Positions 47,516 to 57,961 of a stretch of 64,000 bases of DNA are shown here, piece by piece. The notes beneath the pieces were generated by a model. It ran no database searches, was not told where the DNA came from, and worked only from the letters and a program-made list of their open reading frames with translations. Origin of the DNA: Bacteroidia bacterium (GTDB taxonomy: Bacteria > Bacteroidota > Bacteroidia > J057). Numbering within the stretch: position 1 is the first letter of the stretch; every line of letters begins with the position of its first letter. The translations under genes were made by a program, and so were the position numbers. The stretch is from NCBI GenBank assembly GCA_030430205.1, contig JAUIGE010000015.1:62001-126000 (forward strand). Direction: 5' to 3'.

Positions 47516-49039
47516 TTATTTCAATCTTAACTCATACAAATCTTTTCGCCTATCGCGCAAATTTCGCACCGCGCCAAAGCGGTTTAGCTCCCGCAACATA
47601 TCCAGGTCCACATCAACAACCAGAATCATTTCTGTATTGGGGGTGGCTTCGGCCTTGATGCCGTTGGCGGGGAAAGCGAAATCGCAGGGCGTGAAGACCA
47701 TGGACTGCGCATATTGGATGTCCATATTATGGACGCGGGGCAGGTTGCCGACGCTCCCTGTTATGGCAACATAACATTCGTTTTCGATGGCGCGGGCCTG
47801 TGCGCAGTTGCGCACGCGGGAGTAGCCATTTTGGGTATCTGTCAGAAATGGGACAAAGAGAATGTCCATGCCCTGGTCTGCAAGGATACGGCCCAACTCA
47901 GGGAATTCCACATCATAACAAATCAAAACACCGATTTTTCCACAGTCTGTATCGAAAGTCTTAAGCTTGCGCCCTCCACGCATCCCCCAATCCCGGGCCT
48001 CGTCAGGCGTGACGTGTATTTTTTCAAACTCTTCAACACTCCCGTCCCTTCTACATAAGTAGCCTACATTATACAGGATACCATCATCTTTCACCAGAGG
48101 CATGCTGCCCGTGATGATGTTGATGTTATAAGAAATGGATAGTTCTGAAAATTTATCGCGGATCGCTTCAGTATAATTGGCCAGTTCGCGGATGGAGTTG
48201 GGGAGAGAAAGATGGTTGTAGGGCTCCATCAAAGGTGCATTGAAAAACTCCGGAAATATCGCAAAGTCAACCCTGTAGCCCGAAACAGCATCCACAAAGT
48301 ATTCCACCTGCTGCATCAAATCTTCAAAGCTATTGTATTTGCGCATTTGCCATTGCACAAGGCCCAGGCGGACGACAGTCTTGGTTGCTCTTGGCTTTTT
48401 GCTGGGACGCTCATAATAAATGTTATCCCATTTCAACAAAACCGCATACTCTTTGGAGGCAGCATCTCCTTCCAGGTAATTTTTGATGATTTTGGTGGGA
48501 TGAAAATCATTGGAAAGCTGAAAATTCAGAACGGGGTCGTTGATCTCTTTCAATCGAACTTTTTCGATGTATTGCTTGGGGCTTAGCTCCTCCTCGTATT
48601 TGTGATAATTGGGAATGCGACCTCCGAACATAATGCTCTTGAGGTTCATTTTTTCACAAATTTCCTTGCGGAAATCATATAAACGCCTGCCCAGGCGCAG
48701 CCCACGAAATTCGGGTTTGATAAAAATATCAATCCCATATAAAACATCCCCCTCAGCATCATGGGTATTAAAGGTGTAGTCTGCTGTTATATCATTATAG
48801 GTATGCTGATCTTCAAAGGAATTATAATCCACGATGATAGACAAAGCACAACCGGCCAGTACACCATTAGCTTTGATTACGACCTGACCTTCAGGAAAAA
48901 TGCTGATCAACTTTTCTAAATGATATTTTTCCCAATAAGGCTCATCCAAATTAGCATAAGCCAAAATCATGGCTTCTTTCAACTCCTCATAGTCCTGCAT
49001 GGTCAAAAACTCCAGTTCAATCGCATCAATTTTTGTCAT
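47516..49039 (-). CDS. bifunctional GNAT N-acetyltransferase / carbon-nitrogen hydrolase (nitrilase fold)
   Basis: 507 residues. The N-terminal GNAT domain (1 to ~215) has YGIDIFIKPEFRGLRLGRRLYDFRKE, the acetyl-CoA pyrophosphate loop. The nitrilase-superfamily domain (from ~222) has the catalytic triad Glu264 (FAIFPEFFNAPL), Lys340 (FEKIHVTPDEARDWG) and Cys374 (VLICYDVEFPELG). The fusion is widespread in bacteria and sits beside polyamine genes here, so an amide substrate related to polyamine or arginine metabolism is possible. That link is inference. Confidence 0.93.
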   Translation of the reverse strand: MTKIDAIELEFLTMQDYEELKEAMILAYANLDEPYWEKYHLEKLISIFPEGQVVIKANGVLAGCALSIIVDYNSFEDQHTYNDITADYTFNTHDAEGDVLYGIDIFIKPEFRGLRLGRRLYDFRKEICEKMNLKSIMFGGRIPNYHKYEEELSPKQYIEKVRLKEINDPVLNFQLSNDFHPTKIIKNYLEGDAASKEYAVLLKWDNIYYERPSKKPRATKTVVRLGLVQWQMRKYNSFEDLMQQVEYFVDAVSGYRVDFAIFPEFFNAPLMEPYNHLSLPNSIRELANYTEAIRDKFSELSISYNINIITGSMPLVKDDGILYNVGYLCRRDGSVEEFEKIHVTPDEARDWGMRGGRKLKTFDTDCGKIGVLICYDVEFPELGRILADQGMDILFVPFLTDTQNGYSRVRNCAQARAIENECYVAITGSVGNLPRVHNMDIQYAQSMVFTPCDFAFPANGIKAEATPNTEMILVVDVDLDMLRELNRFGAVRNLRDRRKDLYELRLK

Positions 49040-53070: not shown

Positions 53071-53457
53071 ATGAAACAGATTAGTGGCATATTTTTATTG
53101 ATTCTGTATATGGTGGGCATGCTCAGGCCAGTCCTGCCCTATTTGGAATATGCCATCAATCAAAAGCATATCGCAACAGAACTCTGTATCAACCATGACA
53201 AACCGGAACTGAAGTGTAACGGTCATTGTTACCTGATGCAGCAGTTGAAAGCCATGGCGGTAGAACAAGGCAGCGAGCTGCCTTCCGAAGTTCCGCCGGT
53301 GCTATCTGTTGAAGAAGTCCTCTCTGTCCATATAGTGGACCCTTACGCACTTTTTACAGCCCTTCCTCAGCAATTATTCTCTTTCCCTCCTGAGGCTGAT
53401 CCTCTCACCGAGGCAATATACCTGGGCACAGTCGAGCCACCGCCAAAGTTTTCATGA
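53071..53457 (+). CDS. small membrane-associated protein with Cys-x9-Cys-x3-Cys motif
   Basis: 128 residues: hydrophobic N-terminus (IFLLILYMVGML) and the block ELCINHDKPELKCNGHCYLMQQL with Cys39, Cys49 and Cys53. The CNGxCYL motif recurs in unannotated Bacteroidota proteins that sit near metal-handling genes. The rest has no recognised domain. Position before the MbnP/MbnH-like genes suggests a metal (copper or iron) related role; inference only. Confidence 0.6.
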   Translation: MKQISGIFLLILYMVGMLRPVLPYLEYAINQKHIATELCINHDKPELKCNGHCYLMQQLKAMAVEQGSELPSEVPPVLSVEEVLSVHIVDPYALFTALPQQLFSFPPEADPLTEAIYLGTVEPPPKFS

Positions 53458-53520
53458 AATTTTCTTTTTTCGCTTTAGCAAATACCTGATCCGGTTTTTG
53501 CGCTAAAGCTTATTTCATGA
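53452..53520. promoter_or_regulatory. nested inverted repeats between Cys-motif gene and barrel gene
   Basis: Outer arms TCATGAAAT (53452-53460) and ATTTCATGA (53512-53520) enclose inner arms GCTTTAGC (53472-53479) and GCTAAAGC (53502-53509). Both arm pairs are exact. It overlaps the stop of the first gene. It may be an RNA hairpin or a protein-binding site controlling the downstream cassette. Confidence 0.45.
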
Positions 53521-53540
53521 ATCTTTAACCTTTCATCCAG

Positions 53541-54446
53541 ATGAAAAAAGTAGGCTTTTTACAAGTCATACTCATTTTCCTGAGTATGCCTCTTTGGGCT
53601 TGTGATGTGTGTGGCTGTGCCTCATCCATGGGTACAGGCTCCTTTGGGATCAACAATCGAGTCAATCTTATCAGCCTGAGAAGTCAGTACGCAGGCTTTT
53701 ATGCCTATGACCATATGGGGCTTCGGGCCAATGATCAATATATGCAGGCTGAAATCTATGGACAGTATAACTTCCTGAAAAGATTTCAGCTTAAAGTAGA
53801 TGTGCCCTATGGCTTCCGTTTTAGAGAGTATCTCGATGCTTCTCGTCAACTTTCAGGAGTTGGAGATCCCTGGGCGCGCCTGGACTTTTACCCTTTGGCC
53901 ATTCAAGCCGATGAGAAGCGTAAATCCAGCCATGAGCTGGCTGTCGGTATGGGCATTAAAGCCCCATTGGGACAGTTTCAGCCCGAAAGGAGCCTGGATG
54001 GGCTGACGCCTTTACCTGCCAATTTCCAATTGGGAACAGGCAGCTGGGACAAGCTTTTCAGCATCAGCTACCGCTGGCAACGCAACAAATGGGGCATACA
54101 GGCACAGGCCAACAGCCGCATCAATGGCGCCAACCAGCGCCAGTACGAATTTGGAAACCAGACTTCTGCTCAGCTGATTGGCTACCGATGGGTAGAGCAA
54201 AAGCAGCATAGCTTCAGGCTGCTCGGTGGTGCCTATGCAGAGCATATCCAGGAAGACCGACAATTTTCCGCAAAGCGGCCCGGAACAGGCGGCAAAGGCT
54301 TGTTCGCCACCGCAGGTGCAGAATATGTCCAAAAAAAGTATGCTGTTAACCTGCAAATGACGCAGCCTCTATTCCAAAATTACGCTTCTAACGGAGTGGA
54401 GACCCGGACCAGACTGGGCGCTTCTGTCAGCTATTTTTTCAATTAA
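53541..54446 (+). CDS. outer-membrane beta-barrel-like protein with CDVCGC N-terminus
   Basis: 301 residues; signal peptide followed directly by ACDVCGCASSMGTGSFG, three cysteines in a short metal-binding-like loop. The remainder shows alternating beta strands (RFQLKVDVPYGFRF, HELAVGMGIKAPLG, WGIQAQANSRI, RLLGGAYAEHI) ending in Phe-Phe-Asn (SYFFN), a typical outer-membrane barrel terminus. It is probably a transporter or anchor for metal uptake, next to the MbnP-like protein. Confidence 0.65.
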   Translation: MKKVGFLQVILIFLSMPLWACDVCGCASSMGTGSFGINNRVNLISLRSQYAGFYAYDHMGLRANDQYMQAEIYGQYNFLKRFQLKVDVPYGFRFREYLDASRQLSGVGDPWARLDFYPLAIQADEKRKSSHELAVGMGIKAPLGQFQPERSLDGLTPLPANFQLGTGSWDKLFSISYRWQRNKWGIQAQANSRINGANQRQYEFGNQTSAQLIGYRWVEQKQHSFRLLGGAYAEHIQEDRQFSAKRPGTGGKGLFATAGAEYVQKKYAVNLQMTQPLFQNYASNGVETRTRLGASVSYFFN

Positions 54447-54501
54447 GAACAACCCCTTTTTTACAAAAAATCGTTTCAACTCAAGAAATCAATTAATAAC
54501 A

Positions 54502-55302
54502 ATGAAAACTATCTTAAAATTTCTCTTTATCGGATTGGCACTATCTGCCATGGTTATGAGCGGCTGTAACACTGACGGCTGTACAGACATCTATTCCCTG
54601 AACTATGATGCAGAAGCCAAAGAAGATGACGGTAGCTGCGAGTATCCTACAGTGATGGTAGGATTTGATTATGTAGTAGGCGATTCCGAATTTTCCTATG
54701 GCACCACCTACATCGTAGATGGCGTAGCCGTTAGCTTCAGCCTGGCTCAGTTTTATGTTTCTTCTGTAAAATTATTGGCAGAGGATGGTACGCAGCTTTC
54801 CGAATATCCCGATACCTATATGCTGGTCACTCCAGACGGTGGCATGTATTCTCTAGGGGAAGCCAAAAAAGAGCATACACACACCATGACTTTTGACATC
54901 GGGATAGATGAAGTCACCAACAGTCAGTCTGAGACTGATTTTGCGTCCTGGCCTGCAAACCACCCGCTGGCGGCTCAATCTCCCAGTATGCACTGGAACT
55001 GGCTTTCAGGCTATATTTTCCTCAAACTGGAAGGGCTGGTAGATACCGATGATGATGGCACACCTGATGCGCCTCTGGTTGCCCATACAGGCACCAACAA
55101 CCTAAGGCAAAATATCACCTTGACCATTCACCAGGAAGTAGACGAGGCCATGAACCACGTCATGCTGGAATTTGACCTGGCCAAACTTCTGGATGGCATC
55201 GACATCGTCAACGACAATGTCACCCATACAGGCGATAATATCGGCCTGGCGACGGATATCATGAATAATTTTCAGGATGCATTTGCGGTAAGTCATCACT
55301 AG
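54502..55302 (+). CDS. MbnP-like copper-binding-family lipoprotein
   Basis: 266 residues with lipobox MSGC-N. An N-terminal CTDIYSLNYDAEAKEDDGSC unit (a Cys-bounded NYNPxAxxDDGSC-type repeat) precedes the MbnP domain. That domain is recognised by FYVSSVKLLAEDG, the tryptophan-rich SPSMHWNWLSGYIFLKLEG block (~160-178) and the FDLAKLLDGIDI ending. MbnP proteins bind Cu(I), with the site formed by Trp oxidation via the MbnH peroxidase. The peroxidase gene follows 3 bp later. Confidence 0.85.
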   Translation: MKTILKFLFIGLALSAMVMSGCNTDGCTDIYSLNYDAEAKEDDGSCEYPTVMVGFDYVVGDSEFSYGTTYIVDGVAVSFSLAQFYVSSVKLLAEDGTQLSEYPDTYMLVTPDGGMYSLGEAKKEHTHTMTFDIGIDEVTNSQSETDFASWPANHPLAAQSPSMHWNWLSGYIFLKLEGLVDTDDDGTPDAPLVAHTGTNNLRQNITLTIHQEVDEAMNHVMLEFDLAKLLDGIDIVNDNVTHTGDNIGLATDIMNNFQDAFAVSHH

Positions 55303-55305
55303 AAA

Positions 55306-56328
55306 TTGAAAAAGTACTTTTTCACATATCTCCTCTTCTTTTCGATTCTGATAGGCTTTCATGCCTGCCAGGAGGATGAGCCTGTGGGAAAAGTAGATTT
55401 TGAGTTAAAGCTTCCTCCCCATTTTCCAGAGCCGGCGATTCCCGTCGGCAATGAGCTGACGCAGGCTCGTGTGGATTTGGGCAGGAAGCTTTTTTATGAA
55501 AAAGCCCTTTCTATCGACTCGACGATTTCCTGCGGAACCTGTCACCCCCAAAGCAGGGCTTTTGCGGACGCAGAGGCCATCAGCCTGGGCGTACAGATGC
55601 GCATAGGCATGCGCAATGTGCCCGTACTGGGCAATGTCGCCTACCATCCCTACTTCTTCCGCGAAGGCGGAAGCCCGACCCTCGAAGCCCAGGTACTGGG
55701 CCCTATCTGCAATTTTGATGAGATGGGCTTCAACGCCCGTGAGTTGGCCGATCGGCTGGCTGTCGATTCTGCCTATCAGGCACTGGCCCGGGACGCTTAT
55801 GAGCGTCCGATGGATCTTTGGGTGATCACGCGGGCTTTGGCCGCCTTTGAACGAACGATGATCACGGGCGATGCGCCCTGGGACCGCTATATCCTGGGCG
55901 ATAGCAGCGCGCTGAATGCTTCGGAGAAGCGGGGCTGGGCATTGTTTCAAAGCGAAAAAACGAGCTGTTCGAATTGCCATAGTGGCATTGATTTCAGTGA
56001 TTACAGCTTCCAGAACAATGGATTATATGATGAATATGCCGATCCGGGCCGTTTTCGGGCCACGCTGGATAGCGGCGATATCGGAAAATTCAAGATTTTC
56101 AGCTTGCGAAATGTTGAATTAAGTGGACCTTATATGCACGATGGGAGCTTGCAGACACTGGAAGAAGTGATTGAACACTACAACCAGGGCGGCAGCAATC
56201 ACCCGAATAAGTCGGTCTATATCAGGCCTTTAGGATTAAGTGAAGGGGAAAAAACGGACTTGCTTCATTTCCTGAAAGCTTTGACCGATGAGGCTTTTAT
56301 TCATGACCCGGCCTTCGGACCGGACTAG
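55306..56328 (+). CDS. di-heme cytochrome c peroxidase (MbnH-like)
   Basis: 340 residues with a TTG start 3 bp after the MbnP-like gene. Lipobox FHAC-Q. Two c-type heme sites: CGTCH (~76-80) and CSNCH (~222-226), with the C-terminal PYMHDGSLQTLEEVIEHYNQGG block carrying a Met/His ligand region. Family members reduce peroxide or, as MbnH, oxidise a Trp in the partner MbnP to make a copper site. The gene pair here matches that arrangement. Confidence 0.9.
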   Translation: MKKYFFTYLLFFSILIGFHACQEDEPVGKVDFELKLPPHFPEPAIPVGNELTQARVDLGRKLFYEKALSIDSTISCGTCHPQSRAFADAEAISLGVQMRIGMRNVPVLGNVAYHPYFFREGGSPTLEAQVLGPICNFDEMGFNARELADRLAVDSAYQALARDAYERPMDLWVITRALAAFERTMITGDAPWDRYILGDSSALNASEKRGWALFQSEKTSCSNCHSGIDFSDYSFQNNGLYDEYADPGRFRATLDSGDIGKFKIFSLRNVELSGPYMHDGSLQTLEEVIEHYNQGGSNHPNKSVYIRPLGLSEGEKTDLLHFLKALTDEAFIHDPAFGPD

Positions 56329-57293: not shown

Positions 57294-57322
57294 TATTATT
57301 GGAAACACATTTATCGAGTTAC

Positions 57323-57961
57323 ATGACTGGTCCATCTTCTTTTTATCCTTCTATCCAAACATATATTGCTTCTCTGAGAGATGATTTTGCAAACATTCCA
57401 GCAGAAAGAAAAGCCCGCCTTGCAGAAATTGCTGACTACATCCGGGCCAAAAAGCAGGAAGGCAAAAAAGCCGAGTTGATTTTTATTTGTACCCATAATT
57501 CACGCAGGAGCCATTTTGGGCAAATATGGGGACAGCTTTGGGCACAGTACCATGGGCTAAGCTATGTCTCCTGCCACTCCGGCGGTACCGAAAGCACAGC
57601 TTTCCATCCCCATGCCATAGAGGCATTTCAGGAAATCGGTTTTGACATATCTTCCAAAGGAAGAGAAAACAATCCCCGCTACCATCTGCGCTTTTCCGGG
57701 GAGCTAAAGCCACTTATCGTCTGGTCAAAAATGTATACTGACCCTTCCAATCCACGCAAGCGCTTTGGCGCCGTGATGGTTTGTGATGATGCGGACCAAA
57801 ATTGTCCCATTGTCTTTGGAGCTCAGAAGCGATTTTCGCTTCCTTACAAAGACCCCAAAGAGGCCGATGATACGCCCGAGCAGGCGCAGGTCTATGCCGA
57901 AAGGTGTCGGCAGATTGCCGTTGAATTGGGCTATTTGTTTAGCCTTTTATCGCAGCGATAG
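57323..57961 (+). CDS. low-molecular-weight phosphotyrosine phosphatase / arsenate-reductase-like
   Basis: 212 residues from the ATG at 57323. P-loop LIFICTHNSRRSHFGQIW contains the CxxxxxR(S) active site (Cys-Thr-His-Asn-Ser-Arg-Arg-Ser). A later Asp in DPSNPRKRFGAVMVCDDADQNCP probably acts as general acid. The N-terminal ~55 residues are an extra helical region. Closest in kind to Bacteroidota LMW-PTP/ArsC-like proteins; substrate uncertain. Confidence 0.85.
   Translation: MTGPSSFYPSIQTYIASLRDDFANIPAERKARLAEIADYIRAKKQEGKKAELIFICTHNSRRSHFGQIWGQLWAQYHGLSYVSCHSGGTESTAFHPHAIEAFQEIGFDISSKGRENNPRYHLRFSGELKPLIVWSKMYTDPSNPRKRFGAVMVCDDADQNCPIVFGAQKRFSLPYKDPKEADDTPEQAQVYAERCRQIAVELGYLFSLLSQR

Follow-up and report, generated by a model that had tools for sequence, protein, structure and literature searches.

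Here we describe a putative copper-handling gene cluster within a 64,000-nucleotide stretch (hereafter, the window) of the Bacteroidia bacterium assembly GCA_030430205.1 (contig JAUIGE010000015.1, positions 62,001 to 126,000 of the forward strand). Four open reading frames (ORFs) lie on the plus strand at 53071-56328, exactly where a preliminary description of the sequence had placed them and with the motifs that it had reported: gene A, encoding a small Cys-motif protein; gene B, encoding a CDVCGC protein; a gene for an MbnP-family lipoprotein; and a gene for an MbnH-like di-heme enzyme. The genes and their internal elements are as follows:

53071-53457, plus strand: gene A, candidate leader (128 amino acids; hydrophobic N-terminus; C39-x9-C49-N-G-H-C53; C-terminal EPPPKFS)
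53185-53229, plus strand: C39-to-C53 codons of A, proposed metal-binding motif (from motif conservation in a 35-sequence alignment)
53437-53445, plus strand: Pro-Pro-Pro codons of A, proposed ribosome pause site (P124 and P125 invariant in the 35 sequences)
53451-53521, plus strand: stop-to-start stem (outer arms 53451-53460 and 53512-53521; inner stem 53472-53509)
53541-54446, plus strand: gene B, CDVCGC protein and predicted outer-membrane beta-barrel (301 amino acids; AlphaFold2 model)
53601-53618, plus strand: CDVCGC codons of B (residues 21-26), directly after the hydrophobic N-terminal stretch
54502-55302, plus strand: MbnP-family lipoprotein (266 amino acids; PF20243; Cys22 in a lipobox-like context; WxW motif W165-N-W167)
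55306-56328, plus strand: MbnH/MauG-like di-heme enzyme (340 amino acids; TTG start; lipoprotein-like N-terminus; PF03150)

Genes A and B are separated by 83 bases, and the nested palindrome that had been reported at 53452-53520 runs from the end of A into this gap. The palindrome is real: arms at 53451-53467 and 53505-53521 (82% complementary) enclose a second pair at 53472-53479 and 53502-53509 (100% complementary), and the fold of 53440-53540 reaches -22.6 kcal/mol with a z-score of -4.9, as good as none of 200 shuffles (z of -3.8 with 60 shuffles when a slightly shifted 100-base segment is folded). The outer 5' arm includes the stop codon of A (53455-53457), and 20 bases separate the end of the 3' arm from the B start codon. 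The preliminary description mentions neither this position of the stop codon nor the EPPPKFS ending of A. Rfam returned no match at gathering score. The B start codon can also join a small local hairpin at 53534-53550 (TTTCAT-CCAG-ATGAAA) or pair with 53464-53471 or 53509-53518, which leaves room for additional switch states.

Protein A matches no model in Pfam or NCBIfam at E <= 0.1, and neither A nor B matches the anti-phage families. It nonetheless belongs to a family with a recognizable signature, present in 160 of 395 Bacteroidota genomes. C39, N41, C49, G51 and C53 are invariant among 35 pattern-picked sequences. We then collected 145 A ORFs from the window and 140 fetched stretches (141 in all), representing 142 distinct A genes; 100 of the fetched stretches were among the matches listed in the phylum search and 40 came from another search, and gene calling simply took the longest ORF. 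All 145 ORFs keep the C..CxGxC motif, 143 have Pro-Pro among their final 12 residues, and the spacing between the last Cys and Pro-Pro stays within 63-74 residues (standard deviation 2.2; n = 143). Most often the protein ends in F-[HR]-PP plus two to four further residues. A replicate in named genomes returned the motif in 119 of 120 proteins, Pro-Pro in 120 of 120, and a distance of 65-74. The linker between these motifs is poorly conserved (10.7% identity between random pairs vs 6.4% expected by composition); identity is 48.8% in the Cys segment and 66.6% in the last four residues from Pro-Pro. All 142 A proteins feature a hydrophobic stretch upstream of the Cys motif, as judged by hydropathy only and not by a signal-peptide predictor. 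The next gene follows within 600 bases for 134 of 142 A genes, with a 90th percentile of 231 for the intergenic distance. A sequence that is free to vary at constant length, combined with a pause-type motif at the stop codon, looks like a nascent-chain sensor.

The cluster is also conserved as a gene set. Viewed from A, 130 of 142 genes have an MbnP, MbnH, barrel or TonB receptor gene within four same-strand genes (MbnP 64, MbnH 55, barrel 53, TonB receptor 61), and B, MbnP and MbnH occur together at 28. Viewed from B, 80 named loci (the top-ranking 80 among 371 relatives of B, found with Cys-motif patterns and drawn mostly from Flavobacteriia) contain A in 78, MbnP in 79, MbnH in 77 and all four genes in 75, which bears out the earlier proposal that A and B form part of the cassette. 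In the two named loci without A (L270 and L300), the stretches end close upstream. Viewed from MbnP, A lies upstream in 19 of 30 loci, themselves a subset of a longer table. Conservation of the four-gene order, which the preliminary description had singled out as worth checking, is only partial: the set is kept but its order varies. A-MbnP-MbnH-B is the commonest arrangement in the fetched loci, and the A-B-MbnP-MbnH order of the window is rarer, being found exactly so in 6 of 142. The TonB receptor representative best matches TIGR01778 (TonB-copper), below its cut-off, and further copper-type neighbors of A include SCO1/SenC, PCuAC and PepSY_TM; superoxide dismutase is an occasional neighbor. 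These cluster names rest on one representative per cluster. Two leader genes are present in 36 of the 80 named loci (L229-L308, mostly Chryseobacterium), in the order A-MbnH-A-MbnP-MbnH-barrel, and there the leader facing MbnH features no significant stop-to-start stem.

The pairing of the A stop region with the start region of the next gene recurs across the phylum. At 112 A loci, the stop arm (-6 to +15) and the next start region (-45 to +12) share 7.75 expected base pairs, against 3.80 in dinucleotide shuffles; among ordinary same-strand gene pairs taken from these loci (n = 164), the corresponding values were 4.05 and 4.03 (A vs control, p = 8e-7). The signal holds when one mean is taken per 45%-identity A group (80 groups, p = 1.2e-6), in a grouped test whose swaps and shuffles leave some relatedness in. 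When partners were swapped, an arm at -13 to +8 bound its own partner at -9.07 kcal/mol and swapped partners at -6.15 kcal/mol, and the own partner was in the best 5% at 37.5% of loci, compared to 6.7-16.9% for arms placed elsewhere and 14% for controls. This places the stem signal at the stop codon, where a ribosome paused at Pro-Pro would cover the RNA; the placement of such a ribosome follows from general values for footprint and tunnel lengths. A replicate in named A-MbnP loci supports the stem with 55 distinct arms (p = 3e-7). Across ten Allomuricauda-like loci, 85.5% of helix cells are paired, with two-sided changes in 8 of the cells (0 of 500 shuffles). Finally, when the stop arm was barred from pairing, openness of the start region rose by 0.060 in 110 A loci and by 0.019 in 135 controls (p = 5e-4); 35% of A loci gained more than 0.1 and 4% lost as much. 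For the A family, the masking result favors a switch in which pausing means on.

The lipoprotein and the enzyme of the window correspond to an MbnP-MbnH pair outside of methanobactin producers, as had been suggested. The MbnP protein matches PF20243 (E = 8.3e-31; 107.8 bits, cut-off 27) and the enzyme matches PF03150 (E = 2.2e-45) with two haem sites, CGTCH and CSNCH. Both fall below the equivalog cut-offs: MbnP scores 38 bits against TIGR04052 (cut-off 140), and the enzyme scores 269.4 bits against TIGR04039 (cut-off 362.85), its best family in NCBIfam. The best match of the enzyme in the PDB is 6e1c (E = 2.8e-53). The window MbnP alone matched no MbnP structure; a four-row MbnP profile reaches 7l6g weakly (E = 0.0014 over 57 positions). 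A methanobactin operon was rejected because the genome contains no match to the MbnB-family PF05114. The WxW motif is present in 51 of 69 linked MbnP proteins. As general background, MbnH oxidises a Trp of its partner MbnP to kynurenine, and the window enzyme would be expected to do likewise. The pair of the window resembles the known one in that a PF20243 partner with WxW adjoins a MauG-like di-heme enzyme, and differs in its sub-cut-off equivalog scores, the leader gene ahead and the CDxCGC barrel alongside. Such pairs occur far beyond methanobactin producers, as described in PMC3621798. The window MbnP also carries an extra N-terminal GCTD...DDGSC segment (54577-54645) before the PF20243 domain. 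Its genome holds six MbnP genes; the other five, on contigs C13 (three close together plus one) and C70 (one), feature long C-terminal extensions that by eye resemble type IX secretion sorting domains. Their 3.5-kilobase loci (L002-L006) contain no A match, and two of these five genes are followed by MbnH.

Gene B has no Pfam or NCBIfam match (E <= 0.1) and no PDB sequence match (E <= 1), but its AlphaFold2 model, computed from an alignment of 31 sequences, is a barrel of about 12 main strands by our count (predicted local distance difference test [pLDDT] 83.4, predicted template modeling score 0.79). Among the folds ranked by Foldseek, which are the only ones named by the structure search, the nearest to B are outer-membrane channels: the COG4313 channel 4rl8 (Foldseek E = 1.6e-10; VIA-align Z 24.7, root-mean-square deviation 2.8 over 247 residues), then FapF (Z 23.4). 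Although 4rl8 is the nearest solved fold, identity to it is 15%, and the CDVCGC segment sets B apart from that channel. Residues 15-34 have a pLDDT below 50, such that the CDVCGC segment lies in a low-confidence part of the model and is not confidently placed. Within the looser barrel cluster, C21 is conserved in 47 of 53 sequences, D22 in 41, C24 in 47, G25 in 45 and C26 in 37. We predict that B is an outer-membrane channel with its Cys-rich N-terminus on the periplasmic side. Some barrel relatives behind A (L099, L105, L177 and L184) lack CDxCGC and carry a His/Met-rich N-terminus, GRPDGHAPI.VMGDH.H, instead, which may be another metal site.

The kind of system that this cluster resembles is already known from two translated leaders, CutF and CruR, the latter including leaders ahead of MbnPH-like genes. 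CutF of the Rhodobacter capsulatus cutFOG operon is described in PMC9973294 as a small exported protein with a CxxxC motif, a proline-rich C-terminus, a stem-loop ahead of the next gene and copper-homeostasis neighbors. By the features used there to recognize CutF-like proteins, reported as common in Bacteroidota, A is shorter than 150 residues, has a hydrophobic N-terminal stretch and a Cys motif (metal binding being putative), carries Pro-Pro in its last 15 residues and is followed by a same-strand gene within 1000 bases. Another of those features is a stem-loop hiding the start region of the following gene: a stem is present in the window and significant across the A family, but in the window it has little effect on accessibility. 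Protein A differs from CutF by a third Cys (C-x9-CxGxC) and a distance to the proline motif of 63-74 residues rather than about 45 (PMC9973294). In addition, the 5' arm of the A stem is centered on the stop codon, the next genes are MbnP, MbnH, a CDxCGC barrel or a TonB receptor, and the copper polarity is probably opposite. CruR, the DUF2946 leader of Bordetella bfrG, likewise combines a Cys motif and a C-terminal Pro-Pro at a fixed spacing and heads operons with TonB receptors, PepSY_TM, SCO, PCuAC and MbnPH-like genes (PMC9426467). It features CxxC and RAPP where A has CxGxC and mostly F-[HR]-PP; 45 residues lie between its motifs, a spacing shown to matter, compared to about 60-71 in A; and it is Rho-dependent (PMC9426467). 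Membership of A in DUF2946 was rejected because there is no family match and because CxGxC and mostly F-[HR]-PP replace CxxC and RAPP at about 45 residues; PF11162 exceeded its cut-off in 0 of 40 genomes, and the position of A in its own genome is not among the PF11162 matches at E <= 1. The main text of PMC9973294 makes no mention of MbnP, MauG or Flavobacteria, and a literature search, which did not cover the supplement of that paper, did not find the A signature, the four-gene linkage with the CDxCGC barrel or the phylum-wide stop-to-start stem. What is added here is the family signature, the four-gene linkage and the phylum-wide stem with its position.

The genes, the conserved motifs with their spacing, the conserved linkage and the stem with its position are established by computation. 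From these we infer that the cluster is probably a copper-handling operon headed by A, a nascent-chain copper sensor of the CutF/CruR kind with a stem-mediated output. Protein A would be inserted co-translationally into the inner membrane, with C-x9-CxGxC exposed outside of the cytoplasm before the C-terminal end has left the ribosome. The C-terminal Pro-Pro would slow or stop the ribosome a few codons ahead of the A stop; the paused ribosome would cover the 5' arm of the stem. The 3' arm is positioned immediately ahead of the next gene, which would be translated more when the stem is open. Copper on the Cys motif would alter the pause. When copper is scarce, a long pause would keep the stem open and B, MbnP and MbnH would be made; when copper is bound, the pause would be released, the stem would close and expression would fall. 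MbnH would oxidise a Trp of MbnP to build a copper site, and the barrel B may pass copper, or the ligand of its MbnP partner, across the outer membrane. The likelier polarity would thus unite that of CruR with the stem-type output of CutF. If the leader model is right, we lean toward this copper-off direction because the controlled genes are uptake receptors and MbnP-MbnH, because of CruR, and because the analogous genes CorA/CorB are down in copper (MbnP itself is not markedly similar to CorA), as stated in the passage on them in PMC3621798; the opposite sign of CutF keeps this to a modest preference. The preliminary description had suggested that the extra genes and the palindrome may add uptake and control. 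The latter half is supported, in that the palindrome and the Cys-motif gene look like control, but A is most likely a regulatory leader and not a structural or uptake component.

Several observations weigh against the proposal of a stem-coupled copper leader. The model of A was built on an alignment of 35 relatives picked with the C..CxGxC pattern, the family was not found in 235 of the 395 phylum genomes, and A is lacking in 11 of the 30 MbnP loci. Plain fold z-scores near the stop codon average -1.47 for A and -1.20 for ordinary intergenic regions, and z < -3 is reached around the stop in 13.5% of A loci vs 24.3% of ordinary intergenic regions; the arm-specific stem tests were made because such simple hairpin scoring separated A loci poorly. 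No significant stem was found in named loci with MbnH directly after the leader (n = 30, p = 0.065). Two of five covariation measures were not significant (further pair types, 216 of 500; both-side-changed pairs, 62 of 500), and the helix was picked by eye from the same sequences, a +1 slide yielding 4 such pairs. Barrel-first loci, the class to which the window belongs, are the weakest of three large classes (26% at p <= 0.05 vs 45% and 43%), and several of them lack a stem. Within the window, masking the stop arm shifts start accessibility little (0.42 before, 0.49 after), and other bases then become available as pairing partners for the start codon.

Alternatively, A could be a translated leader that acts through transcription, in which the paused ribosome protects the mRNA from Rho, with a stem that is incidental or that aids RNA polymerase pausing. 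CruR works in this way and its operons include MbnPH-like genes (PMC9426467), and some A loci have long intergenic regions (the 90th percentile of 231 given above) and no strong stop-start stem. We consider this rather unlikely, as the stem goes with the stop codon and the following start rather than with an unstructured C-rich stretch, and no DUF2946 match exceeded the cut-off in the 40 genomes. Nor does the stem resemble a copper-independent intrinsic terminator or attenuator: a stable intergenic hairpin would suit one, but the scan finds no terminator-like site at the hairpin, and in the inspected folds the 3' arm extends into the sequence ahead of the next start codon, making this origin highly improbable.

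A second group of explanations concerns what A does and what it senses. The conserved Cys motif outside of the cytoplasm, and the fact that CutF was itself first read as a chaperone (PMC8456105), would fit a working periplasmic copper chaperone or a membrane anchor for MbnP/MbnH, with the stem merely coupling translation of neighboring genes. The linker, however, is little conserved in sequence yet near-fixed in length, a chaperone would not be expected to carry a C-terminal Pro-Pro only a few codons ahead of its stop, TonB receptor genes are also found behind A, and no such stem joins ordinary gene pairs at these loci; an uptake or chaperone component was set aside on these grounds, and we hold it to be quite unlikely. 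Zinc, thiol redox, oxidative stress or another extracytoplasmic signal might instead act on the operon through the same kind of leader, given that Cys motifs bind several metals and that superoxide dismutase occasionally neighbors A. Because the neighbors belong mainly to copper-type families, a different signal appears decidedly unlikely.

Two further genes were noted by eye near the cluster: an acetyltransferase-nitrilase fusion at 47516-49039 and a low-molecular-weight phosphatase or arsenate-reductase-like protein at 57299-57961.

Returning to the copper-sensing leader, a broader and more tentative reading, to which we assign somewhat less than even weight, is that Bacteroidota possess a separate leader family without DUF2946 ancestry. 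Such leaders would sense copper outside of the cytoplasm during their own export and switch MbnP-MbnH-barrel and TonB-receptor operons by a hybrid of CruR logic, in which copper releases the pause, and SecM/CutF output, in which the paused ribosome opens the stem, the latter being rebuilt from new sequence lineage by lineage as a general stop-to-start switch. Bacteroidota genes rarely rely on Shine-Dalgarno pairing.

Overall, an uncharacterised family, whose window member lacks any Pfam or NCBIfam match, gains a testable role, and MbnP-MbnH pairs outside of methanobactin producers are tied to a putative copper sensor whose motifs, spacing and stem are each defined and mutable. If the proposal is true, copper sensing by nascent chains would extend to many Bacteroidota, and the family would offer a second geometry (63-74 residues vs about 45) for studying how a metal signals to the ribosome.

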